Positions 1,348 to 28,647 of a stretch of 32,781 bases of DNA are shown here, piece after piece. A program made the translations under genes and the position numbers. The stretch comes from Altererythrobacter xiamenensis. Lineage in GTDB: Bacteria > Pseudomonadota > Alphaproteobacteria > Sphingomonadales > Sphingomonadaceae. Each line of letters opens with the position of its first letter. Positions within the stretch are counted from its first letter, which is position 1. Under the pieces are notes generated by a model that searched no databases, was not told the origin of the DNA, and worked only from the letters and a program-made list of their open reading frames with translations. The DNA lies in assembly GCA_945906905.1 (NCBI GenBank), contig CAMDSM010000004.1:1-32781 (forward strand), read 5' to 3'.

Positions 1348-2160
1348 ATGACCTTCGACTACCCCGCCTATATCGCCTGCTTCCTGAGCGGCGACGACGA
1401 TGCGCTGGTGGAGCGGTTCTTTGCCGACGATTGCGAAATGCATTCCGGCAGCGGCGTGCGGCGGGGGAAGGTGGGGATGAAGGAATTCCTCGCCTGGGCG
1501 CATGATGGGGTGCGGGAATGTCCGCGTATTCAGCATTACGTGCAGGATGAAAGCAGCCTGTTTGCCGATATCGACATGGATTTCCACGCTACCCGCCACC
1601 GGCCCGACTTTCCTTTCGGCGCAATGTATCCCGGTGACACCATAACGGTTAAATTTCTCGCTCGCTATGACCTTAATGGTGAAGGAAAGATTACCCGGCT
1701 CAGCACCATGACATGGCCGCCCGAGCAAGGCGTGACCAAGATCGCGCCGCTGGGCGGGCATCCAGGTCAGGTGGCGGCCTATCACGCTTATGCGGCGGCG
1801 TTTTCGGCGGGCGATCCGTCACGCTACACGCGGTTTTACACCGATGATGTGGTGCTGGAACTGGGTTCGGTTCCGCCGATCTATGGCGCCACGGGCATCG
1901 CCGAATACTACACCGCGATGTTCAAATCGGTGCGCGAGATGCTGACGATCCATTCGCTTGATGCCAGCGACGAACAGCTGGTGGTCGATTGCACTAGCCG
2001 CTTTACCGCCGCGACCGATGCGCCAGATTTCGTGGTCGGGGCGTTGAAGCGAGGCGACTCTATCGATGTGCGGGTGATCGTGACCTATGCCTTGCGCGCA
2101 GGACGCATCTGCCACATCGGCGTGAAACGCGGCGGGGAGCCGGTGTTTCCGCGGGCTTGA
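1348..2160 (+). CDS. Protein with two tandem SnoaL/NTF2-like domains
   Basis: Two successive alpha+beta modules of the type 'F.sGD...l..fya.D....': YIACFLSGDDDALVERFFADDCEM and YAAAFSAGDPSRYTRFYTDDVVL. Confidence 0.75.
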   Translation: MTFDYPAYIACFLSGDDDALVERFFADDCEMHSGSGVRRGKVGMKEFLAWAHDGVRECPRIQHYVQDESSLFADIDMDFHATRHRPDFPFGAMYPGDTITVKFLARYDLNGEGKITRLSTMTWPPEQGVTKIAPLGGHPGQVAAYHAYAAAFSAGDPSRYTRFYTDDVVLELGSVPPIYGATGIAEYYTAMFKSVREMLTIHSLDASDEQLVVDCTSRFTAATDAPDFVVGALKRGDSIDVRVIVTYALRAGRICHIGVKRGGEPVFPRA

Positions 2161-11375: not shown

Positions 11376-11393
11376 GGCAGCAACCCCCTACCC
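11370..11393. other. Perfect inverted repeat between convergent genes
   Basis: GGGTAGGG (11370-11377), 8-nt loop cagcaacc, CCCTACCC (11386-11393); no T-tract on either side. Confidence 0.55.
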
Positions 11394-12971
11394 CAGCAAA
11401 AACCCCTCATACCCCGCATCCCGCACCGCATCGCACTTGGCCCGGTAAGCCCCCACCCCGCCAACATAGGGCATGAACACCTCGCGCCCATCCGCCGTGC
11501 GGCCTTGATACCAGCTGTTGGCGCGCGGGAAGACGGTCATGTGGGCCACCTCGTGGGCGTGTTGCATCCACGCCTGTTCGGCGCATGGATCGGCCTCGAT
11601 CACCGACTGGCCCTGCGCACGCATGTCAGACAGGCAGCGGGCGATCCATTCTACGTGTTGTTCGATGGACACCACCACGTTGGACAGCACCGAAGGGCTG
11701 CCGGGGCCGGTGATGGTGAACATATTGGGGAACCCCGCCACCGCCAGGCCCAGATAGGCGCGTGGGCCGTCGGCCCATTCGTTGGCGATCTGCTGGCCGC
11801 CGCGTCCGGTGATGTTGATCGCCTTGATCGCGCCGACGCAAGCGTCGAACCCGGTGGCGAAGATGATGGCGTCGGCGGGATAGCTGCCTTGCGCGGTGTC
11901 AACGCTGTCAGCGGTGATCTGCACCACCGGCTCCTCGCGAACATCCACCAGCGCCACGTGTTCGCCGTTCATCGCATCGTAAAAGCCGATTTCGGTGCAC
12001 AGCCGGCGTGATCCCAGCGGGTAGCCTTGCGGGATCAGCTTGCGGGCCTTTTCCGGATCGGCAATCGTGCGGGCGAGTCTGCGGCGGGCAAAATCGGTGG
12101 CCAGCGCGTTGGATTCGTCGTCGAACAGCAGATCGTCAAACTCCATCAGCAGGCTGAACGTGCTCTCGGTCCAGGCGCCTTCCAGCCGCTGTTCGCGCTC
12201 CGCCGGATCGCATTCCTTGGCGCTGCCAGACTTGGGCAGGGTCGCAAAGCTAAGCGCGGAATGCCGCATGATCTCGCGCATGGCCGGATAACCAGCCTTG
12301 GCTGCGGCGCTGTCCTCCGCCGACAGCAGCGGATTGCTGCACGGCACGGCGAAGCTAGGCGTGCGCGAGAACACGGTCAGCTCCCCCACCTGATTGGCGA
12401 TTGCGGCCACGGTCTGGATGCCCGAGGAGCCGATGCCGAAATGGCACACGCGCTTACCTGTCAGGTCAACCGAGGCATCCCATTTAGCGGTGTGCAGGAT
12501 CGGGCCGGTAAAGTTCTCCAGCCCCGGCAGATCGGGCAGTTTGGGATCGGACAATGCGCCGGTCGCCAGGATCAGGTGTTGGACGTCGAATGTGGTGCCG
12601 GTATCGGTTGCCACCGTCCAGCGCCGGCTCTCCTCGTTCCACTGCGCGGCGGTTACACGGGTCTCGAACAGGATCCCGTCGCGAAGGGCATAGCGATCGG
12701 CGACATGATCGAGATATTCGAGGATTTCGGGCTGCGCGGAATAGCGTTCCTTCCAAGTCCATTCCTGCTCCAGTTCGGAATCGAAGCTGTAGGAATACTG
12801 CACGCTGGGAATATCACAGCGCGCGCCGGGATAGCGGTTCCAGAACCAGGTGCCGCCAACGCCAGAACCAGCTTCCACAACTTGCGCGGTGAAGCCATCC
12901 TGCCGCAGCTTGTGCAGCATATACAGCCCCGCGAAACCCGCGCCGACGACCAGTGCGTCCAGTTTTTTCAT
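11388..12971 (-). CDS. Flavin-containing (Baeyer-Villiger type) monooxygenase
   Basis: Start MKKLDALVVGAGFAGLYML at 12971; BVMO fingerprint FTGPILHTAKWD (FxGxxxHxxxW[DP]); second Rossmann GIGSSGIQ. Confidence 0.93.
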   Translation of the reverse strand: MKKLDALVVGAGFAGLYMLHKLRQDGFTAQVVEAGSGVGGTWFWNRYPGARCDIPSVQYSYSFDSELEQEWTWKERYSAQPEILEYLDHVADRYALRDGILFETRVTAAQWNEESRRWTVATDTGTTFDVQHLILATGALSDPKLPDLPGLENFTGPILHTAKWDASVDLTGKRVCHFGIGSSGIQTVAAIANQVGELTVFSRTPSFAVPCSNPLLSAEDSAAAKAGYPAMREIMRHSALSFATLPKSGSAKECDPAEREQRLEGAWTESTFSLLMEFDDLLFDDESNALATDFARRRLARTIADPEKARKLIPQGYPLGSRRLCTEIGFYDAMNGEHVALVDVREEPVVQITADSVDTAQGSYPADAIIFATGFDACVGAIKAINITGRGGQQIANEWADGPRAYLGLAVAGFPNMFTITGPGSPSVLSNVVVSIEQHVEWIARCLSDMRAQGQSVIEADPCAEQAWMQHAHEVAHMTVFPRANSWYQGRTADGREVFMPYVGGVGAYRAKCDAVRDAGYEGFLLG

Positions 12972-13864
12972 GCGCTTACGCCCAATCTTGCGCGCAGAAA
13001 CGCGCCCGCCCCGTCGAGTGCCGCGCGGCCTTCGGGCAGCAGGAAGTGGAAACTCTGCCACACGTGGATCATCTCGGGCCACACCTCCAGCTGCACGTGA
13101 GTGCCCGCATGGCCCGCCCGATCCGCTACCAGCAGAGCGTCCCCCAACAGGATCTCAGCGGAACCGACCTGCACCAACAGCGGTGGCAAGCCCGCAAGAT
13201 CGGCATGGGCGGGCGAGGCCAGCGGATGATCGGCATCCTGCCCGGCAAGATAGAGCGCAGCCATGGCCAGCAGGCTGGTGTGATCGAGCGAGGGATCGTC
13301 CGCCGCCTTGCTCTGCATCGTGGCGACAGTACAGGCAAGGTCCGCCCAAGGTGACAGCAGATATCCCGCGGCGGGCAGCGCGGTTCCCTCCGCACGCAGC
13401 TTCACCAGCGTCGCCAGCGTCAACCCGCCGCCCGCCGAATCCCCGGCGATAACGATGCGACTGGCGGGAATCCCGCGAACGAGCAGTGCGCGATAGGCCG
13501 CCACCGCATCCTCGACTGCGGCGGGAAAGGCATGTTCGGGCGCAAGGCGATAATGCGGGGCGTAGGCGGGCAGGCCAGCTGCCTTGCCAACTTCCGCAAC
13601 CAGTCCGCGATAGCCCTGCGGACTGCCCGCGACATAGGCCCCACCGTGCAGATAGAGCAGCGCGCCTGCATGGTCCGGCCCGGAATTGATCGCCAAAGTC
13701 GGCACGCCGCCGAGTTCGATCTCGACATAGGTCAGCGCCTCATCAGCGGGCATCGTGGCCAGCAAAGTCTCAAGATCGGCCCGCGCTTTCAGCGGATCGC
13801 CCGAAAAGTCGATCCCGCCGCCGCGCATTGCCGCGATCAATTCTGCCAAAACCGCACTGGCCAT
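12968..13864 (-). CDS. Alpha/beta hydrolase, HSL (hormone-sensitive lipase) family esterase
   Basis: HGGAYVAGSP oxyanion motif and GDSAGGG nucleophile elbow; likely start MASAVLAELIAAM at 13864; ATGA overlap with the monooxygenase start. Confidence 0.92.
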   Translation of the reverse strand: MASAVLAELIAAMRGGGIDFSGDPLKARADLETLLATMPADEALTYVEIELGGVPTLAINSGPDHAGALLYLHGGAYVAGSPQGYRGLVAEVGKAAGLPAYAPHYRLAPEHAFPAAVEDAVAAYRALLVRGIPASRIVIAGDSAGGGLTLATLVKLRAEGTALPAAGYLLSPWADLACTVATMQSKAADDPSLDHTSLLAMAALYLAGQDADHPLASPAHADLAGLPPLLVQVGSAEILLGDALLVADRAGHAGTHVQLEVWPEMIHVWQSFHFLLPEGRAALDGAGAFLRARLGVSA

Positions 13865-14036: not shown

Positions 14037-16166
14037 ATGAGCAAGGCACTTGCCTGCGGGCTGCTGGCAGGCTTGCTGCTGGCATCGTGTGCGCCTGCGT
14101 CGAACCGGATCGTGCCTGCGCTAATCGCCCCACAAACCCCGGCTGCCGTTGACACCGCACGGATGTTGGCCACCGATGATCCCGCAAATATCGGCAACTG
14201 GATGAGCTATGGCCGCAATTGGGGCGAGGACCGGTTCAGCCCGCTCGACCAGATCAACGCGGGCAATGTCGGCCAGCTGGGCCTCGCATGGTTCGATGAT
14301 CTGGAAACCATGCGCGGGGTGCAGGCGACCCCGCTGGTGGTCGATGGCGTGCTATATAATGAGAGCGTCTATAATATCATCACCGCATACAACGCCGCGA
14401 CGGGTGAGCGTTTGTGGACCTATGACCCGCAAGTGGGCGCGGAATGGGCGCGGCTGGCCTGCTGCGGCCCTTCGGCGCGCGGGATCGCGGCGTGGGAGGG
14501 CAAGCTGTATATCGGCGCACTCGACGGGCGGCTGATCGCGATTGATGCTGCCACAGGCGAGGAGCTGTGGACCACGCAAACCTTTGACCGGGCGCAGGCC
14601 TATTCGATCACTGGTGCGCCGCGCGTTTATGATGGCCGGGTGGTGATCGGCAACGGCGGAGCGGACTATGGCGTGCGCGGTTTTGTCGCTGCTTATGATG
14701 CGACAACGGGCGCACAATTGTGGAAATTCTACACCGTCCCCGGCAATCCGGCAGACGGCCCCGATGGCGAAACTTCGGACAGCGCGATGGAAATGGCCCT
14801 GCCCACGTGGCACGGCGAATGGTGGCGGTATGGCGGCGGCGGCACGGCGTGGGATGCCTTTGCTTATGACCCGGCGCTCAACCTCGTCTACATCGGCACC
14901 GGCAACGGCAGCCCGCACATGTGGCAGATCCGCAGCGAGGGGCGCGGCGACAATTTGTTCCTGTGTTCGATCGTGGCGGTCCATGCCGATACCGGAGAAT
15001 ATGTCTGGCACTATCAGATGGTGCCCGAGGAAGACTGGGATTACACCTGCACCCAGCCGATGATCACCGCCCAGATCGAGTATCAGGACGAGATCCGCTC
15101 GGTCATCATGCAGGCGCCCAAGAACGGGTTCTTCTATGTGATCGATCGGGCCACCGGCGAATTGCTCAGCGCGGGCGATTACACTTCGGTCAACACCTGG
15201 GCTTCCCGCATCGATATGCAAACCGGCCGCCCGGTGCTGCAACCCGGCGCGCACAACACCACCACGCCGCATCTGATGAGCCCGAGCTGGCTGGCCGCGC
15301 ACACCTGGCACCCGATGGCGTTCAGCCCGGACACTGGCCTTGTTTACCTGTCGGCGCAGGAACAGGGTGATGTCTATGCAGCGGCCGAGCCTGGCGCGTT
15401 CAACTATGTCCACCACCGCAGCAATTCGGGCCAGCAACGACGCAACATGCCCGAACTGCGCGCAGAACTGATGGCGCAGGCAGTGGCAGACGAGCAAGGC
15501 TATTTGCTCGCCTGGAACCCAGTGACCCAAACCGAGGCCTGGCGCGTGCCCTATCGCGTGCCGGGGTCGGGCGGCGTGCTGGCGACGGCGGGCAATCTGG
15601 TGGTTCAGGGCACGATTGACCAGACGCTGGCGATCTATGCCGCCGATACGGGCGCAAAGCTGTGGGAGATGGACATCGATCAGGCCCCGGTGGCGGGGCC
15701 GATCAGCTATATGGTCAACGGGGTGCAATATCTGGCGATCAATGCCGGTTGGGGCGGATCGCCGGTGTATAATCTGGGGCCGTTCCAGACTTCCACCGCC
15801 AAGCTGCTGGTGTTCCGTCTGGGCGCGACTGGGGTGGAACTTCCCCCACCGCCGCCACCCAGCGAATTGCCGCGCCCGCCGTTCCTGACCGCGACCGAGG
15901 ATGTGATCGCCCAAGGCCGCGCGCTCTATGGTGAAAACTGCGCCCGCTGCCACGGCCCCAACGCGGTCGGCGGGGTGAAGGATCTGCGCTGGATGACGGC
16001 GGAAACGCGCGCAAGTTTCGCCGATATCGTTCTGCGCGGGATCTATACCGAACGGGGCATGGTCGGCTTTGGCGATCTGCTTTCCGAAGCCGATGCCACC
16101 GCCATCCACGCCTTCCTGATTGCGCGAGCGAATGAAGACTATGCGGATGCGTCTGCCCATCCTTAG
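14037..16166 (+). CDS. PQQ-dependent alcohol dehydrogenase fused to cytochrome c (quinohemoprotein), predicted lipoprotein
   Basis: Beta-propeller repeats with W-motifs, vicinal Cys pair LACCGPSARG, proline linker PPPPPPSELPRPP, heme site CARCH; N-terminus MSKALACGLLAGLLLASC with lipobox LASC. Called ORF begins upstream at 13755. Confidence 0.93.
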   Translation: MSKALACGLLAGLLLASCAPASNRIVPALIAPQTPAAVDTARMLATDDPANIGNWMSYGRNWGEDRFSPLDQINAGNVGQLGLAWFDDLETMRGVQATPLVVDGVLYNESVYNIITAYNAATGERLWTYDPQVGAEWARLACCGPSARGIAAWEGKLYIGALDGRLIAIDAATGEELWTTQTFDRAQAYSITGAPRVYDGRVVIGNGGADYGVRGFVAAYDATTGAQLWKFYTVPGNPADGPDGETSDSAMEMALPTWHGEWWRYGGGGTAWDAFAYDPALNLVYIGTGNGSPHMWQIRSEGRGDNLFLCSIVAVHADTGEYVWHYQMVPEEDWDYTCTQPMITAQIEYQDEIRSVIMQAPKNGFFYVIDRATGELLSAGDYTSVNTWASRIDMQTGRPVLQPGAHNTTTPHLMSPSWLAAHTWHPMAFSPDTGLVYLSAQEQGDVYAAAEPGAFNYVHHRSNSGQQRRNMPELRAELMAQAVADEQGYLLAWNPVTQTEAWRVPYRVPGSGGVLATAGNLVVQGTIDQTLAIYAADTGAKLWEMDIDQAPVAGPISYMVNGVQYLAINAGWGGSPVYNLGPFQTSTAKLLVFRLGATGVELPPPPPPSELPRPPFLTATEDVIAQGRALYGENCARCHGPNAVGGVKDLRWMTAETRASFADIVLRGIYTERGMVGFGDLLSEADATAIHAFLIARANEDYADASAHP

Positions 16167-16193: not shown

Positions 16194-17948
16194 ATGAGAA
16201 GCCTGAAAATCGCCCTTGCGGCCCTGGCCATTGGTTGCACCGCTCCTGCACAAGCCCAAGCCCCCGGCGAGGCCAGCGCGGTGCCCGATCTATCGTGCCA
16301 GTATGATTGCCTGATCGAGTTTGTCCGCGATCATATGGCGGCGCTCGGCACGCGCAATTATGCCATGCTGCCGCTGGCTGCCGACCTAATGTTCACCGAA
16401 AACAACGTGGTGCTGCCAATGGGCCAAGGCCTGTGGCGCACGGCGGACGACGTCGACGCCGATGGGCTGGCCGTCGCCGATGAGACCACCGGCCATGCCG
16501 CGTGGTTCGGATCGGTGCGCGAGAACGGCAATCCGGTGTTCTATGCCGTGCGCATCCACGTGGCCGACGGCCGGATCGACGAGATCGAGAGCGTGGTTCA
16601 CCGCCGCACCGCGCTCCCCGCGCCGTTCGGTGATTGGCAGAACATGCAGCATTTCGCCGAGTTCTACGAGGAATTGCCCGAGGCCGAACGCCGCCCGCGC
16701 GAGCGGATGCTGGCGATTGCCGACGCCTATTTTGACACGGTCGAATTGAATGACGGGCAGGTGTTCGCGCCCTTCTCCGAGGATTGCAGTCGGCTGGAAA
16801 ACGGCATCTCCACCACTGCGCCCGCACCCGGCGCACAAGCCAGCGCGGCCAACATCGCCAGCGGCTGCCGGGCGCAGTTTGAACTGGGCCTTTACCGCAT
16901 CAACAAGCGCATTCGCCGCCATCTACCGCTGGTCGATGTGCGGCGCGGCGTGGTGGTGGGCACGGGCTTTTTTGATCATGCGAATGAGTGGGACAGATAC
17001 TTGCTCACCGATGGCCGCGAAATGCGCACGGCGCTGAAATGGCCCAATTCAATCAGCCTGATCGAAGCCTTCCGCATCCGCAATGCCGAAATCCAGCGGA
17101 TCGAGGCCACTTTCACTTACGTCCCCTATTTCATGAACAATCCATTCTGGAGCGCGCCCACCACGATGGCCCGCTTCAACCCCAACCCCGAGGCTTGCCC
17201 CGGCGATTGCCTGAGCGAGCTGGCCACGCGCGTCGCCGACGGCATGGTCGGCAACCAGTGGCGCGGGGTCAATTGGGGCGGACGGGTTGGCTATTCGGAA
17301 AACTCGGTCGGCATCCGTGTGGGAGAAGGGATCTGGCGCACCGTCACCGCGGTTGATCCTGATCCGCTGGTGATCGCCGACGATCTGACCGGCAAGGCCG
17401 TGTGGATCGGGCGGATCGAAGAGCATGGTCAGCCCGCCTGGGCCGCGCTCACCGTGTCAGCCGATGGAGTGAACGTGGGCAGCGTGGATGTGCTGATCCG
17501 CCGCAGCAATTATGGCGCGCCTTATGCAGAGCCGGTTTCGGCCAGCGATTTTGCCCCACTGCCACTCGCCCGGCAAACATCGCGTGACGATATGGCGGCG
17601 GCGGCAGGGCAATTCATGGAGGCACTTGGCTCCAACGGTTCGGCGCCCGATATTTTCGCCGCCGATTGCCAGTGGCTTGTCAACGGCCAGAACGTGGGCC
17701 AATGCGCCGCGCCCTTCGGCACCCCCGTGCTCGCCCGGATCGAACGGGTGCGCGACCGGCAATTGCTGGCCGCCGACGAGACGCGCGGACTGATCGCCTT
17801 CCGCTTCTTCGAGGATCTCCCCGCTGCGGGCGGACAAGGCTATCCGCTGACCTATCAGGTGGTCGAGCTATATCGCTTTGAAGCAGGCCGCGTGGTGCAG
17901 GTGGAAGCCTTCACCAGCGAACTGCCTTATGGGATACAGCCGCGCTAG
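16194..17948 (+). CDS. Secreted protein with internal duplication of a four-cysteine SnoaL-like (DUF8021-like) domain
   Basis: Signal peptide MRSLKIALAALAIGCTAPAQAQA; two copies beginning CQYDCL and CPGDCL exactly 300 codons apart; aligned segments ENNVVLPMGQGLWRT/ENSVGIRVGEGIWRT and GLAVADETTGHAAWFGSVRENGNP/PLVIADDLTGKAVWIGRIEEHGQP. Confidence 0.85.
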   Translation: MRSLKIALAALAIGCTAPAQAQAPGEASAVPDLSCQYDCLIEFVRDHMAALGTRNYAMLPLAADLMFTENNVVLPMGQGLWRTADDVDADGLAVADETTGHAAWFGSVRENGNPVFYAVRIHVADGRIDEIESVVHRRTALPAPFGDWQNMQHFAEFYEELPEAERRPRERMLAIADAYFDTVELNDGQVFAPFSEDCSRLENGISTTAPAPGAQASAANIASGCRAQFELGLYRINKRIRRHLPLVDVRRGVVVGTGFFDHANEWDRYLLTDGREMRTALKWPNSISLIEAFRIRNAEIQRIEATFTYVPYFMNNPFWSAPTTMARFNPNPEACPGDCLSELATRVADGMVGNQWRGVNWGGRVGYSENSVGIRVGEGIWRTVTAVDPDPLVIADDLTGKAVWIGRIEEHGQPAWAALTVSADGVNVGSVDVLIRRSNYGAPYAEPVSASDFAPLPLARQTSRDDMAAAAGQFMEALGSNGSAPDIFAADCQWLVNGQNVGQCAAPFGTPVLARIERVRDRQLLAADETRGLIAFRFFEDLPAAGGQGYPLTYQVVELYRFEAGRVVQVEAFTSELPYGIQPR

Positions 17949-19348
17949 ATCGGGTAATGCCCCGGCTCAGTTTCAAATGTCACCCAGCGCAGTTCGGTGA
18001 AGCTGTCGATCCCGGCCTTGCCGCCGAACCGGCCATAACCGCTGGCCTTCATCCCGCCAAAGGGCATTTGCGGTTCGTCAGACACAGTGCTGGCGTTGAT
18101 GTGGCAGATGCCGGCGTGGATCTGCTTGGCCACGCGCAGGCCGCGGGCAGTGTCGCGGGTGAACACGGCCGAGGACAGGCCATAAGCCGTGTCATTCGCC
18201 AGTTCGATTGCGTGGGCCTCATCGCGGGCGCGGATGATGCCGACCACCGGGCCGAAGCTCTCATCGCGGAACAGCTTCATATAGGGCGTCACATGATCGA
18301 CCAGATGCGCGGGCATGACCACGTTGAGTGTGGTTTCCCCGCCCACCAGCAGCTTTGCCCCGTGGCTCACCGCATCGTCGATCAAGCCATAGCAATGTTC
18401 GACTGTTTTGCGGTCCACCACCGCGCCCAGCGGCGTGGTGCCCAAGGTAGGATCGCCAGCCGGCATGGTGCCGACTTTGGCGGCAAACTTGGCGGCAAAT
18501 TCATCGGCCACGGTTGCAACCACGATGATCCGCTCAGTGCTCATGCAGATCTGGCCCTGGTTCATATAGGCACCAAAGGCCGCCGCTTTCACCGCCTCGT
18601 CAAGGTCAGCATCCTCCAGCACCAGCATCGGGGCCTTGCCGCCCAGTTCGAGCAGCACCGGCTTGAGATGCTCCGCCGCACGCTTGGCGATGATCTTGCC
18701 GACTGCGGTCGATCCGGTGAAGTTGATCCGCTTGACCTCAGGCGCATCGATCAGCGCACCGACCACGGCGGCGGCATCTTCCGGGGCATTGGTGACGACA
18801 TTGACCACGCCTTCGGGGAAGCCAGCCTCGGCAAAAGCCTCGATAATCAGGGCATGGGTGCGTGGGCACTGTTCCGACGCCTTGAGGATCACCGCATTGC
18901 CGCAAGCCAGCGGCACCGCAATCGCGCGAACGCCCAGAATGATCGGCGCATTCCACGGGGCAATGCCCAGCAGCACGCCGACAGGCTCCCGCAGCGCCAT
19001 CGCCACGGTGCCGTGATGGTCCGACGGGATCACCTCACCCTGGATCTGCGTGGTCAGCGCGGCGGCTTCGCGGATCATGCCCGCCGCCAGCATCAGGTTG
19101 AACATCGCCCAGCCAGCCGTCGCGCCAATCTCGCCCATCATCGCAGCGATGAAGAGATCCTTCTTGGCCACCAGCGCATCAGCGGCCTTGGTCAAAACGG
19201 CGCGCCGGGCATTGGGGCCCATATTCGACCACACGGCAAAGCCTGCCTGCGCGCGGGCGGCGATGGCTGGGATATCGGCCGCGGTCATTGCCTCAGCAGT
19301 GGAGGCGACTTCGCCTGTCATCGGGTTGAGGCGGGTAAATTGGCGCAT
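17945..19348 (-). CDS. Aldehyde dehydrogenase (vanillin/benzaldehyde/salicylaldehyde-dehydrogenase-like)
   Basis: LELGGKAPMLVLEDADLDEAV, catalytic NQGQICMSTERI, PFGGMKASGYGRFGG; start MRQFTRLNPMTGE at 19348. Confidence 0.93.
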   Translation of the reverse strand: MRQFTRLNPMTGEVASTAEAMTAADIPAIAARAQAGFAVWSNMGPNARRAVLTKAADALVAKKDLFIAAMMGEIGATAGWAMFNLMLAAGMIREAAALTTQIQGEVIPSDHHGTVAMALREPVGVLLGIAPWNAPIILGVRAIAVPLACGNAVILKASEQCPRTHALIIEAFAEAGFPEGVVNVVTNAPEDAAAVVGALIDAPEVKRINFTGSTAVGKIIAKRAAEHLKPVLLELGGKAPMLVLEDADLDEAVKAAAFGAYMNQGQICMSTERIIVVATVADEFAAKFAAKVGTMPAGDPTLGTTPLGAVVDRKTVEHCYGLIDDAVSHGAKLLVGGETTLNVVMPAHLVDHVTPYMKLFRDESFGPVVGIIRARDEAHAIELANDTAYGLSSAVFTRDTARGLRVAKQIHAGICHINASTVSDEPQMPFGGMKASGYGRFGGKAGIDSFTELRWVTFETEPGHYPI

Positions 19349-19377
19349 GGGTTGGTCCTTATGCAAGTCAGACGGCG

Positions 19378-20583
19378 TTAAACGGGCAGCCCGACATAGT
19401 TTTCGGCAATGGAAGTTTGTGCAGCGCGGCTGCTGGCAATGTAATCGAGTTCGGCCACCTGCATCGCCCGCTCGAACGGGCCATCGCCGGGGAAACGGTG
19501 CATCAGCTTGGTCAGCGTCCAGCTGAACCTCTCCGATTTCCACACCCGCGCCAGCGCTTTGTTTGAATAGGCGGCAATGCCATCGTTATCTGCGCTGCGG
19601 AAATAGCCGACCAGCGCGGCACAGGCATAATGCACATCGCTCGCCGCCAGATTGAGGCCCTTGGCGCCCGTTGGTGGCACGATATGCGCCGCATCGCCGC
19701 ACAACAACAGGCTGCCATGGCGCATCGGCGCGAACACGTATGACCGCAAGGGCGCGATGCTTTTTTCCAAAGCCGGGCCACGGGTGATTTTGGCGGCGGC
19801 TTCGGGGCCGAGGCGCACGGCCAGTTCGTCCCACACGCGGTCATCGCTCCAATCTTCGATCCGCTCGGTCAGCGGCACGTCGATGTAATAGCGGCTGCGG
19901 GTGGCGCTACGCATCGAGGCCAGCGCAAAGCCGCGTTCGTGGTTGGCATAGATCAGTTCATGGTTGCACGGCGGGACATCGGCCAGAATACCCAGCCAGC
20001 CGAAGGGATAGACCAGCTCAAACTCCTGCGCCACGCTGGCCGGAATGGCCTTGCGGCTGGGCCCATGGAAGCCATCGCACCCGGCAATAAAGCGACAATC
20101 GACCCGCTGCTCCACCCCGCCTTGGGTATAGGTGACATAGGGCGCATCGCCCCCCACGTCGTGAAGCGCCACGCTTTCAGCCTCATAGTTCACCTGCAAT
20201 CCGCGATCCTCGGCAGCGTCCATCAGATCGGCGGTGATCTCGGTCTGGCCATAGACGCACACGTTTTGACCCACCAGATCGGCTATATCGATGCGGATCA
20301 GCCGCTCGCCATCGGCCAGGTTGAAGCCATCATGCGGCAATCCCTCGGTTTTGAGGCGCGCATCCAGCCCCAACCGCTCCATCAGGCTGACGGTGATATT
20401 CTCCAGCACCCCGGCCCGAATGCGGCTGCGCACATAATCGGGCTTGCGCGCTTCCAGCACCACGCAATCGACACCTTCCGCCCGCAACAGATGGCCCAGC
20501 AACAGGCCCGCAGGCCCGGCTCCAATAATGCAAACCTGTGTTTTCATGACCTGTGTTTTCATGAATTGCTGCATAGCCCGCAA
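19378..20583 (-). CDS. pobA: 4-hydroxybenzoate 3-monooxygenase
   Basis: MKTQVCIIGAGPAGLLLGHLLRAEGVDCVVLE, RSRIRAGVLE, YPFGWLGILADVPP, LLLCGDAAHIVPPTGAKGLNLAASDV. Start ambiguous: TTG 20583, ATG 20574, ATG 20563 or ATG 20548. Confidence 0.94.
   Translation of the reverse strand: MRAMQQFMKTQVMKTQVCIIGAGPAGLLLGHLLRAEGVDCVVLEARKPDYVRSRIRAGVLENITVSLMERLGLDARLKTEGLPHDGFNLADGERLIRIDIADLVGQNVCVYGQTEITADLMDAAEDRGLQVNYEAESVALHDVGGDAPYVTYTQGGVEQRVDCRFIAGCDGFHGPSRKAIPASVAQEFELVYPFGWLGILADVPPCNHELIYANHERGFALASMRSATRSRYYIDVPLTERIEDWSDDRVWDELAVRLGPEAAAKITRGPALEKSIAPLRSYVFAPMRHGSLLLCGDAAHIVPPTGAKGLNLAASDVHYACAALVGYFRSADNDGIAAYSNKALARVWKSERFSWTLTKLMHRFPGDGPFERAMQVAELDYIASSRAAQTSIAENYVGLPV
20534..20563 (-). 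repeat. Perfect 15-bp tandem duplication including the pobA start codon
   Basis: acctgtgttttcatg at 20534-20548 and again at 20549-20563; encodes MKTQV-MKTQV. Confidence 0.95.
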
Positions 20584-25524: not shown

Positions 25525-25605
25525 AACGCCCCCCTCGATCCCGATGGGATACTACCCGCGCCGCAGGGCACCACAAGGCCAAAGAAAATGGCATAGGAAA
25601 TGGCC

Positions 25606-25633
25606 AAAAGAAAGGGGAGCCGAAGCCCCCCTT
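25606..25633 (-). terminator. Rho-independent terminator downstream of the TonB-dependent receptor
   Basis: On the minus strand AAGGGGGGC-TTCG-GCTCCCCTT-TCTTTT: 9-pair stem (one G-T), UUCG tetraloop, U-rich tail. Confidence 0.85.
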
Positions 25634-25657
25634 CCCGTAACGTCAGGCTGTTCAGCC

Positions 25658-28324
25658 TTAGAAGTCCTTGCGCACCGAAATGCCATAGGTCCGCGGCTGG
25701 TTGGGATAGCCCGAGATCGAGCGCGGCTGGCCGGGCGAATCGAACAGGCTCAGCAGGTAGCGGTCGTTGAGCAGATTGCGGCCCCAGATGCTGACATCCA
25801 GATCGAGGTCGGTGAACTCGTAAGTCAGCGAGGCCGACAGATCGTCCACCTGGCGCTGGAACGGCGCCGCCGCTGCAATCGCTGCTGCCTGGCCGCCCGA
25901 GAGGAAGCCCGGCAGACCTTCGATCACCTGAACGTTGCTTTCGTGGTGGAAGGTAGAGCGGGCGACCAACATGTCGCCATTGCCCAGATCCTGTTCCCAC
26001 TGCGCGCCGAGCACAATCGTCCACTCCGGAATGCCCGAGGGGCGCGTGCCCGACAGGTCACCAACGGTCGACAGCAGGAAGCTGACGTAGGTGGGATCGA
26101 GCCAGGTGACAGCGAAGTTGATCGACAGCGGATCGATCGGATTGGTCACTGTCTCCAGCTCGACACCCCAGGTGCGCTGCTTGCCGGCATTGGCCAGCAG
26201 GAAGCCGGTGCCGGTGAAGGTGTTCGACTGGAAGCCGTTGATATCCTGACGGAAGCCCGTGAGGTTCATCGAGAACATGTCCCAATCGCCCTTCAGGCCC
26301 ACTTCGATCACCTTGGCGTTTTCAGGCCCGGCAAAGCGGCTGCCCGAAGTCTGATTGTTGAACGTGGGGTTGGCGGCGCGCACCGCTGCCAGATCGCTCG
26401 CCAGCGGACGGCTGTCACGCGCCAGATTGAACGAGCTCGCCTTGAAGCCGGTGGCATAGGAGGCGTAGATGTTCAGATCGGGATTGACGTCGTATGCCAA
26501 GCGGACGGTGTAGCTGAAATCATTGTCATTGGTCGTCGCGCTTTCAATCGCATTGGGCACGTTGACGAAGCGCGGGAACAATTGCAGCGGACGGCCGACG
26601 AGGAAGGGATTTACCGCCGGGTTGTTCTGGTTGGCGGTGGCATTGGCCGTTGCGCCAGCCACGATGGTCGGGAAGGCCGCTGCGCCGCCTGCCCCGGCCG
26701 CGCTGGTCCCTGCGGCGAAGGAGCCAATTTCTGCTTGCGTCGCGGCCCGGCCGAGCATGAGTGCGTTGCCCACGGTAACCGCAATGCCCTGCGCCCGGAT
26801 CGCCCGGAAGCCCGCATCCACCAGATCAATGTTCGAGAACACGTCGAGCGACTGGTAATCGGTGACTATGGACTTGTCGTCCATGGTGTAGTTGCCGCCC
26901 AAGGTCAGCGTCAGTCCGTCGGTGATCTCGAAATCGAACTGCGCGAACAGGCTCAAGGCATCGTTGCTGAGCGCGAACTGGCCGGTTTCTGCCAGACCAG
27001 CCGAACCGAACTGGCCGATATATTGCGCCGGATTGCCATAGAGCGTGCCGATCGTGCCTTCGATGAACTGGATCGTGCTGCCGCTGCCATTGCCGCCTGC
27101 CGACAGATCGGCAAAGTTGCGGAAGCGGTTGCCCTTGAAGATGTCCTGATTTTCAACCACATTTTCGTCGAAGTAGAACACACCGGCAAGGAAGCTGACC
27201 GGACCGACTTCGCCGGTAACGCGGAATTCCTGGGTGAAGGAGTCCAGCGCCTGGGTCTGATAGCGTTGCAGCAAGTCAAGCGAGGTGAAATCAACGTCCT
27301 GATCATAAGCGCCCCGCGTTTCGCGATAGGCGGTGATCGAGGTCAGGTTGATATCACCCAGTTCCAGATCGAGTTGGCCCGAAATGCCGTAGTTCTCGAT
27401 ATCATTGGTCGAGGCGAAATTGTTGTAGACCACGTTCGCAAACGGATTGGCCGGGTCGGTCAGCTGCCCCCCCAGCCCAAGGATCGCCGCCGACGCTGCC
27501 GAACGCTGGACATTGACCACACCACAGCAATTTTCATCAATGCTGTCATAGTCGCCAATGATGCGGGCGGTGAAGTTGCTGCCGTTGTCGAACAGGAACT
27601 GGCCGCGCACGAACCAGCGGTCACGCTCGTTCGTTCGGCTGTTCGATGCTGGATCAACATTGTGGCCATCACGCTTGTTGATACCAGCAGCCACGCTCAC
27701 CGCCATGCTGTCAGACAGCGGGCCACTGGCGTAGACAGTCCCGACCATCGCATCCAGATTGCCATAGGCCACTTCGACCGAGCCTTCCGGCGTGAACGAG
27801 GGCGCTTCGGTAACCAGCGAGATTACACCGGCCGAGGCATTCTTGCCGAACAGCGTCGACTGCGGACCGCGCAGCACTTCGATGCGCGAAACGTTGGGCA
27901 GATCGCCGATCTGGGCGGCGGTGCGGCTGCGATAGACGCCATCGACGAACACGCCGACCGAAGGCTCAATCCCGGCATTGTTGGCACCATTGCCGAAACC
28001 GCGGATGATGAAATTGGTATTGGCCGAGCTTTGCAGTTGGTTGACCCGCAACGAGGGAACCACAGTCTGCAAATCGCGCAAGTCGCGAATCTGTTCGCGT
28101 TGCAGCGTTTCGCCGGTGGTCACACTGACCGCGACCGGGGTTTGCTGCAAGGTCGTCTCACGCTTGGTGGCGGTGACGAGAATCATATTGCCCTGAGCTT
28201 CTTCAACCACTTCCTCGGGCGCGTCCTGCGCCTGGGCGGCCATTGGCATGGCCAAGGCGATTGCGGCGACGCCGCAAAGAAGTGAGCGGGCATGTGCGAC
28301 CTGACCGGCGTTACGGATTTTCAT
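25658..28324 (-). CDS. TonB-dependent outer-membrane receptor
   Basis: Signal peptide MKIRNAGQVAHARSLLCGVAAIALAMPMAAQAQ; TonB-box region NMILVTATKRE; plug VFVDGVYRSRTAAQIGDLPNVSRIEVLRGPQSTLFGKNASAGVISLVT; C-terminal RTYGISVRKDF. Confidence 0.96.
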   Translation of the reverse strand: MKIRNAGQVAHARSLLCGVAAIALAMPMAAQAQDAPEEVVEEAQGNMILVTATKRETTLQQTPVAVSVTTGETLQREQIRDLRDLQTVVPSLRVNQLQSSANTNFIIRGFGNGANNAGIEPSVGVFVDGVYRSRTAAQIGDLPNVSRIEVLRGPQSTLFGKNASAGVISLVTEAPSFTPEGSVEVAYGNLDAMVGTVYASGPLSDSMAVSVAAGINKRDGHNVDPASNSRTNERDRWFVRGQFLFDNGSNFTARIIGDYDSIDENCCGVVNVQRSAASAAILGLGGQLTDPANPFANVVYNNFASTNDIENYGISGQLDLELGDINLTSITAYRETRGAYDQDVDFTSLDLLQRYQTQALDSFTQEFRVTGEVGPVSFLAGVFYFDENVVENQDIFKGNRFRNFADLSAGGNGSGSTIQFIEGTIGTLYGNPAQYIGQFGSAGLAETGQFALSNDALSLFAQFDFEITDGLTLTLGGNYTMDDKSIVTDYQSLDVFSNIDLVDAGFRAIRAQGIAVTVGNALMLGRAATQAEIGSFAAGTSAAGAGGAAAFPTIVAGATANATANQNNPAVNPFLVGRPLQLFPRFVNVPNAIESATTNDNDFSYTVRLAYDVNPDLNIYASYATGFKASSFNLARDSRPLASDLAAVRAANPTFNNQTSGSRFAGPENAKVIEVGLKGDWDMFSMNLTGFRQDINGFQSNTFTGTGFLLANAGKQRTWGVELETVTNPIDPLSINFAVTWLDPTYVSFLLSTVGDLSGTRPSGIPEWTIVLGAQWEQDLGNGDMLVARSTFHHESNVQVIEGLPGFLSGGQAAAIAAAAPFQRQVDDLSASLTYEFTDLDLDVSIWGRNLLNDRYLLSLFDSPGQPRSISGYPNQPRTYGISVRKDF

Positions 28325-28647
28325 GAGCATCTCCATCTCTCCTGCACTCAATGCGCGGACCTTCCTGGACCTGTCGCACCTGACGTGAACACATTGATTA
28401 GGCTGCGCGCCCTAGTTTAGGCAACGGTTAAGAACAATTGCTCGGTTGGAAAGGTTGCATTTGAAACCGCACCTGTATCAATTTCGCCACAATAGCGCTG
28501 ATTTGCCCGCAAATTGGGGCCATTATTCCCCTTGGCCGGTCCAATGCGTTGCCGCCTTGCGGTTGCGGCCCTCCTGAGCTAGAGCGCGCGGAAATCTTCG
28601 CAGGTGCAGCAACGGCTCTCCTGCCCCATTATCCAAAGGCACTTTCT

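Follow-up and report, generated by a model that had tools for sequence, protein, structure and literature searches.

The window, by which we mean the whole 32,781-nt stretch of DNA analyzed here, contains an intact gene on its plus strand that starts with ATG at 16194, codes over 16194-17945 for 584 amino acids, and ends with a stop codon at 17946-17948. The encoded protein (P0001, or P1) consists of two homologous units, A and B, and is called the two-unit protein below. The gene and neighboring genes considered here are as follows.

11388-13082, minus strand: Baeyer-Villiger-type flavin monooxygenase (BVMO), divergent from the PQQ-ADH gene; family matches, with a counterpart at the same place only in orthologous locus L063.
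14037-16166, plus strand: type II quinohaemoprotein alcohol dehydrogenase (PQQ-ADH; PQQ propeller plus cytochrome c), 27 nt upstream of the two-unit gene; TIGR03075 at 541 bits, PDB 1yiq and 1kv9 at E<1e-187.
16194-17948, plus strand: two-unit protein P0001 (units A and B, four NTF2-like domains); open reading frame, alignment of 33 fused orthologues, AlphaFold and Foldseek.
16194-16259, plus strand: signal-peptide-like N terminus, residues 1-22, MRSLKIALAALAIGCTAPAQAQ; recognized by eye from the translation.
17945-19543, minus strand: NAD(P)-aldehyde dehydrogenase (ALDH), convergent with the two-unit gene; PF00171 at E 2e-144.
19378-20583, minus strand: 4-hydroxybenzoate 3-monooxygenase PobA, just beyond the ALDH gene; TIGR02360 at 613 bits, above cut-off.

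The adjacent PQQ-ADH carries a CC pair, WDYT and CARCH motifs, and a lipoprotein-like N terminus, and the gap between its gene and the two-unit gene on the same strand is without a terminator-like site. One further orthologous locus, L063, had an ALDH gene in this position, and PobA adjoined the two-unit gene or its ALDH in L062, L063, and L088. We dropped BVMO as a candidate pathway partner, since we found it in 1 of 55 loci. Elsewhere in the window, 1348-2160 (plus strand) encodes another protein with SnoaL_2 domains in two stretches and showed no sign of linkage to PQQ-ADH, and 25658-28351 (minus strand) encodes a TonB-dependent receptor opposite a long overlapping plus-strand open reading frame (25544-28285) for which we detected no family match.

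The signal-peptide-like start, followed by an AQAxGE motif that is conserved in orthologues, suggests that the two-unit protein is exported. CxxxC motifs open both halves (CQYDC at codon 16296 and CPGDC at codon 17196, 900 nt apart), which also share ENxV...G.G.WRT and ADxxTG blocks and distal cysteines. The translation thus bore out the gene coordinates, motif spacing, sequence blocks, and distal cysteines described in the earlier note, which had also placed the two-unit gene 28 nt behind the quinoprotein stop codon; the shared strand stood, but the gap measured 27 nt. All eight cysteines (residues 35, 39, 198, 225, 335, 339, 492, and 504) were invariant in 33 orthologues, down to 42% identity.

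Alignment of half A with half B gave a blastp E value of 2e-24 at 27% identity and a Smith-Waterman score of 220, relative to a mean of 33.7 (standard deviation, 5.3; z=35) for 1,000 shuffles. Profile-profile comparisons by hhalign connected the first domains of the two halves (A1 and B1; probability of 100%, E 1e-46) and the second domains (A2 and B2; 100%, E 3e-50), and they also connected the two domains within each half (A1 and A2 at 96%, E 1.4e-9; B1 and B2 at 95%). Judged from this homology of the domains inside each half, the two-unit protein is a four-fold repeat derived from two nested duplications. The old internal duplication proposed from the sequence alone therefore held, but the accompanying count of two copies of one domain did not, as each half is itself a pair of homologous NTF2-like domains, for a total of four. 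The domains, all on the plus strand, are delimited as follows.

16296-16643: unit A domain 1, residues 35-150, with the CxxxC pair, E69-N70, R120, and E132; AlphaFold secondary structure and conservation.
16686-17159: unit A domain 2, residues 165-322, with C198, R200, E202, N203, C225, Q228, D261-H262, E291, and E304; AlphaFold, conservation, and homology to domain 1.
17196-17528: unit B domain 1, residues 335-445; hhalign to A1 at E 1e-46 and AlphaFold.
17571-17945: unit B domain 2, residues 460-584, degenerate, with the equivalents of H262, R200, E202, and Q228 lost; hhalign to A2 at E 3e-50 and conservation.

NTF2-like or SnoaL-like proteins form an alpha+beta cone in which N-terminal helices pack on a curved antiparallel sheet. 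AlphaFold2 modeled the whole protein, using 33 orthologues, with a mean pLDDT of 86.5 and a pTM of 0.84 (84.1 and 0.85 for unit A alone), and the same order of helices and sheet recurs four times in the model. In Foldseek searches against the PDB, the whole model matched limonene epoxide hydrolase, MonB (the top match being MonBI-MonBII), and AclR, and unit A alone matched the NsrQ isomerase and ketosteroid isomerase (KSI)-like proteins first, along with designed NTF2 proteins. TM-scores were mostly 0.45-0.67 on single-domain targets and speak to the fold level only. All best matches were NTF2-like, which, together with the models and the four hhalign repeats, places the protein in this fold and agrees with the SnoaL-like fold that the earlier note had suggested through a resemblance to DUF8021 (PF26061), a SnoaL-like family. 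Sequence searches of Pfam, NCBIfam, and the PDB with the protein or its profiles detected no significant relative. No Pfam model exceeded its cut-off for seven family members, and SnoaL_2 (PF12680), the sole SnoaL-type model to come up, reached 14.4 bits against a cut-off of 27.

We compared unit A with 19 single-unit paralogues that were approximately 26-43% identical to it. E69, N70, R120, E132, C198, R200, E202, Q228, H262, and E304 were kept in all 19, except that E69 was replaced by D in one, and unit A was near-invariant at the same ten polar sites across Alpha- and Gammaproteobacteria. Domain 2 of unit A is the most conserved part of the protein. Unit B lacks the equivalents of R120, R200, E202, Q228, and H262 and retains W, D, and Cys at structural positions. 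Across 33 sequences, 65 positions were invariant in unit A versus 17 in unit B. The conserved pocket-like residues thus belong to unit A and not equally to the two halves, a correction to the earlier note. The conserved polar set has the pattern of a functional pocket in unit A with a degenerate partner in unit B, and the unit A pocket may be catalytic. The CxxxC pair was kept in only 5 of the 19 single-unit paralogues, and its behavior fits that of an export-linked disulfide. Because C198 was present in all 19 and C225 in 14, some of them without a CxxxC pair, the second cysteine pair (C198/C225) may not be a disulfide, so that only the first pair would behave in this way.

Units A and B are fused in Erythrobacter relatives and in some Gammaproteobacteria but are encoded by separate adjacent genes in Sphingobium (including Sphingobium sp. 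SYK-6, L112) and in other Gammaproteobacteria (L098, L107, L108, L109, and L113). In a tree of 91 units, the A units, whether fused or split and from either class, formed one group (SH-aLRT of 99) that stood apart from B units and single-unit paralogues. Because A units grouped together across classes, the duplication that gave rise to A and B appears to be older than the split between the Alpha- and Gammaproteobacterial lineages. In Sphingobium, unit B is fused to an SGL/SMP-30-like beta-propeller, with the SYK-6 fusion at L054:8640-10433; that locus additionally carries BKACE, HpcH/HpaI aldolase, and ALDH genes. Plasmid records yielded only three weak homologues.

The genome that contains the window encodes six single-unit paralogues (P0002 to P0007); as assessed by eye, P0004 to P0007 have a signal peptide, and P0002 and P0003 have no recognizable one. 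One paralogue without a recognizable signal peptide (L003:877-1743, contig C58) is flanked by a flavoprotein that by eye is of the vanillyl-alcohol-oxidase type and by an MFS transporter. On contig C228 of the same genome, neighboring genes encode two distantly related secreted proteins whose C termini carry extra cysteines (L006:1234-2998), and in L056 (G036:C122:4000-22000) five or six single-unit paralogues cluster with two very long open reading frames (1032 and 1106 amino acids).

At 48 of the 55 orthologous loci drawn from public genomes, the retrieved stretch contained a PQQ-ADH gene. We attach no p-value to this count because the loci are not phylogenetically independent; the chance level is approximately 4% per 17-kb stretch, given 3-9 PQQ-ADH homologues per genome of approximately 3 Mb. 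In 26 fused Alphaproteobacterial loci, the PQQ-ADH gene ended no more than 350 nt upstream on the same strand. Of the seven loci without PQQ-ADH, four come from contig fragments no longer than 9.4 kb (L094, L102, L110, and L114), two are second copies in genomes whose other copy has one (L088 and L089, with L083 and L078, respectively), and L113 had none in 17.7 kb. Adjacency to one type of PQQ-ADH was not universal: in Sphingobium and Gammaproteobacteria the PQQ-ADH gene was usually non-adjacent, often of another subtype (41-62% identity), and sometimes on the opposite strand. Other partners at the 55 loci were an SGL/SMP-30-like propeller (39 loci), an LdpA-like SnoaL_4 protein (19), an AraC regulator (15), and a TonB receptor (14). 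The corresponding counts at 27 single-unit paralogue loci were 10 for PQQ-ADH, 0 for SGL, 3 for LdpA-like proteins, 0 for AraC, and 5 for TonB, and with 17 of these loci lacking PQQ-ADH, we rejected the idea that every family member accompanies this enzyme. A second arrangement, in which a single-unit paralogue lies approximately 1-7 kb from a different PQQ-ADH (approximately 40% identical to the one in the window), occurs in many genomes (L123, L124, L126, L128, L129, L135, L136, and L137).

We searched for four proteins in the same 201 genomes of the family to which the window belongs. The two-unit protein, fused or split, was present in 15, and the same 15 genomes contained the SGL propeller (E below 1e-60, with the next matches at 1e-52), the exported LdpA homologue LdpA-like2 (E<=1e-60), and PQQ-ADH1, the type beside the two-unit gene (E<=1e-250), at thresholds placed in the gaps that separated orthologues from paralogues, partly after data from a few genomes had been seen and hence not blind. 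These 15 genomes span six genera, in two of which a sampled sister lacks all four proteins (G105 in g1 and G068 in g68). The naive chance of one such 15-genome match is 6e-23, a figure that ignores shared ancestry. In the genus of the window, a separate locus (G015:C1:109394-114927, G167:C35:133203-138542, and contigs C80 and C197 of the genome that contains the window) houses SGL together with three LdpA-like genes and a second PQQ-ADH, and SGL and LdpA-like2 are therefore unlinked to P1; LdpA-like2 is unlinked in other genera as well. Due to this separate location of the partner genes, co-occurrence is not explained by linkage. The earlier note had named beforehand a lack of conserved linkage in related genomes as evidence against its proposed tie to PQQ-ADH; such linkage was found, both at the 48 loci and in the matching set of genomes, and the link between the two-unit protein and PQQ-ADH is real, which supports a functional connection.

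The three LdpA-like proteins matched PDB entries 8abt, 8abu, and 8abv at E values of 1e-23 to 1e-31 and have signal-like N termini by eye. 8ABV is LdpA, of a class described with a His-Asp acid-base dyad (PMC11476836), and LdpA and PcfL act as formaldehyde lyases in the catabolism of lignin dimers (PMC12997858, PMC11323797). The partners described for the enzymes of that catabolism are soluble proteins such as SDRs (PMC12997858). SYK-6 has 62 NTF2-superfamily homologues, most of them of unknown role (PMC12997858). Within the motif DHFQLQ, 8abt and 8abu diverge at one His/Gln position; the His is present in LdpA-like2 and LdpA-like3 and missing from LdpA-like1. Sequence searches with P0001 and its profiles did not find an LdpA chain. 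We dropped the idea that the A-B locus of SYK-6 holds ldpA itself, as the likeliest ldpA candidate (G146:C1:1378035, a 253-amino-acid frame) is approximately 47 kb away, and the known lig and ldp genes of this strain lie outside the A-B locus. The matches to LdpA with signal-like N termini, the type and lipoprotein-like N terminus of the PQQ-ADH, and PobA together point to aromatic catabolism outside the inner membrane, with lignin-type aromatics as likely substrates given the likeness to LdpA and the presence of PobA. We also observed proteins of approximately 700 amino acids in which LdpA-like SnoaL_4 domains are repeated in tandem, two or three per chain (L116:10893-13043; G146:C1:3035708-3042435 and others; G000:C88:3438-5357). 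SYK-6 has many copies, and the genome that contains the window has one. These proteins may represent covalently joined trimers in an enzyme class that is normally trimeric.

We see about an even chance that the two-unit protein works as an exported enzyme of the NTF2 fold, either ahead of the PQQ-ADH or following it, in a conserved and so far undescribed catabolic pathway outside the inner membrane. Activity would reside in unit A, to which the degenerate unit B would be tethered as a partner. In the scheme that we infer, from enzymatic activity and reaction type to order of steps, periplasmic location, and lignin-type aromatic substrate, the PQQ-ADH would oxidize an alcohol group on an imported aromatic compound, and unit A, covalently tethered to its partly degenerate partner unit B, would then catalyze acid-base chemistry without a cofactor (as a lyase, dehydratase, or isomerase) in a predicted NTF2 pocket whose lining is formed by invariant R/E/N/Q/H residues. 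Exported LdpA-like SnoaL_4 proteins and the SGL-like propeller, possibly a lactonase, would serve the same pathway; some of the clusters also hold TonB receptor and AraC regulator genes. We favor an enzyme because of the NTF2-like fold and the polar set kept in unit A and the 19 paralogues. A shared pathway is suggested because P1, PQQ-ADH1, SGL, and LdpA-like2 occur in the same 15 of 201 genomes though partly unlinked, and because of the A/B adjacency and the unit B-SGL fusion in Sphingobium, a Rosetta stone. Aromatic substrates are suggested because neighbors match LdpA structures and PobA is nearby.

The direct position of the two-unit gene 3' of PQQ-ADH in the fused loci, the exact co-occurrence with PQQ-ADH1, and the loss of polar residues from unit B would also accommodate a non-catalytic subunit, chaperone, or substrate- or product-binding protein docking to the dehydrogenase. 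We consider such a role unlikely, since the PQQ-ADH of Sphingobium and Gammaproteobacteria is so often distant, of another subtype, or on the other strand, since homologous single units, some without a recognizable signal peptide, occur in clusters that lack PQQ-ADH, and since several other PQQ-ADHs exist in the genomes and for most of these no two-unit protein lies alongside. Of the roles guessed in the earlier note (binding, chaperone, or lyase), that of an NTF2-fold enzyme, for instance a lyase, thus has more evidence behind it than that of a chaperone.

Limonene epoxide hydrolase uses an Asp-Arg-Asp catalytic triad. The whole-model matches to this enzyme and MonBI-MonBII, the BVMO gene in this window and in L063, and the co-occurring propeller could mean that the two-unit protein is an epoxide hydrolase or other hydrolase that opens an epoxide or a lactone-type ring in a route shared with the BVMO and propeller. 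This seems quite improbable to us, as BVMO is absent nearly everywhere else, unit A alone ranks isomerases first, and the triad is not obvious in the sequence, with unit A instead having invariant R120 and E132 and an H at 122. That the protein is a general envelope protein, unrelated to the pathway and traveling with it by linkage, would suit a variable family with second-copy loci devoid of PQQ-ADH, but we regard this as very improbable because the protein co-occurs exactly with genes to which it is unlinked in several genera and because A and B have stayed together through fission or fusion in two classes. We also raise the possibility, although we lean against it, that Sphingomonadales, SYK-6 included, and some Gammaproteobacteria break down plant-derived aromatic oligomers outside the inner membrane by a new pathway. 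In it, quinoproteins would oxidize the oligomers, and the LdpA-like proteins and the A/B pair, as exported proteins of the NTF2 fold, would cleave them before monomers enter the cell.

These findings pick out, among the NTF2-superfamily homologues, a coherent exported set tied to one PQQ-ADH type and one propeller, define a locus in SYK-6, a tractable lignin model strain, and provide in the A/B protein an example of an NTF2 array whose polar set is conserved in one unit and lost in the other. The fold is known, and the four-domain A/B architecture and its exact tie to PQQ-ADH, the SGL propeller, and exported LdpA-like proteins appear to be undescribed; we found no description of the protein or its partner set in open-licence PMC papers, and an earlier description elsewhere is possible.

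LdpA and PcfL (SnoaL_4, PF13577; NTF2-superfamily gamma-formaldehyde lyases) belong to the same general fold class as the two-unit protein, and LdpA homologues with signal-like N termini are encoded beside it or co-occur with it. However, LdpA and PcfL have no detectable sequence similarity to P0001, LdpA-type proteins have one SnoaL domain per chain rather than four, and LdpA works with soluble SDRs, whereas the two-unit protein sits with a quinoprotein. Limonene-1,2-epoxide hydrolase and the MonB epoxide hydrolase/cyclase, the best fold matches of the full model, share only approximately 10-18% identity with it and have different polar residues, and limonene epoxide hydrolase is single-domain. 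NsrQ and ketosteroid-isomerase-like SnoaL isomerases, the best fold matches of unit A, are likewise single-domain chains, with no significant sequence similarity to the two-unit protein. The MxaJ/XoxJ-type accessory proteins of PQQ methanol dehydrogenases resemble the two-unit protein in being exported and encoded next to a PQQ-ADH, but they have periplasmic-binding-protein folds, in contrast to its NTF2-like fold.
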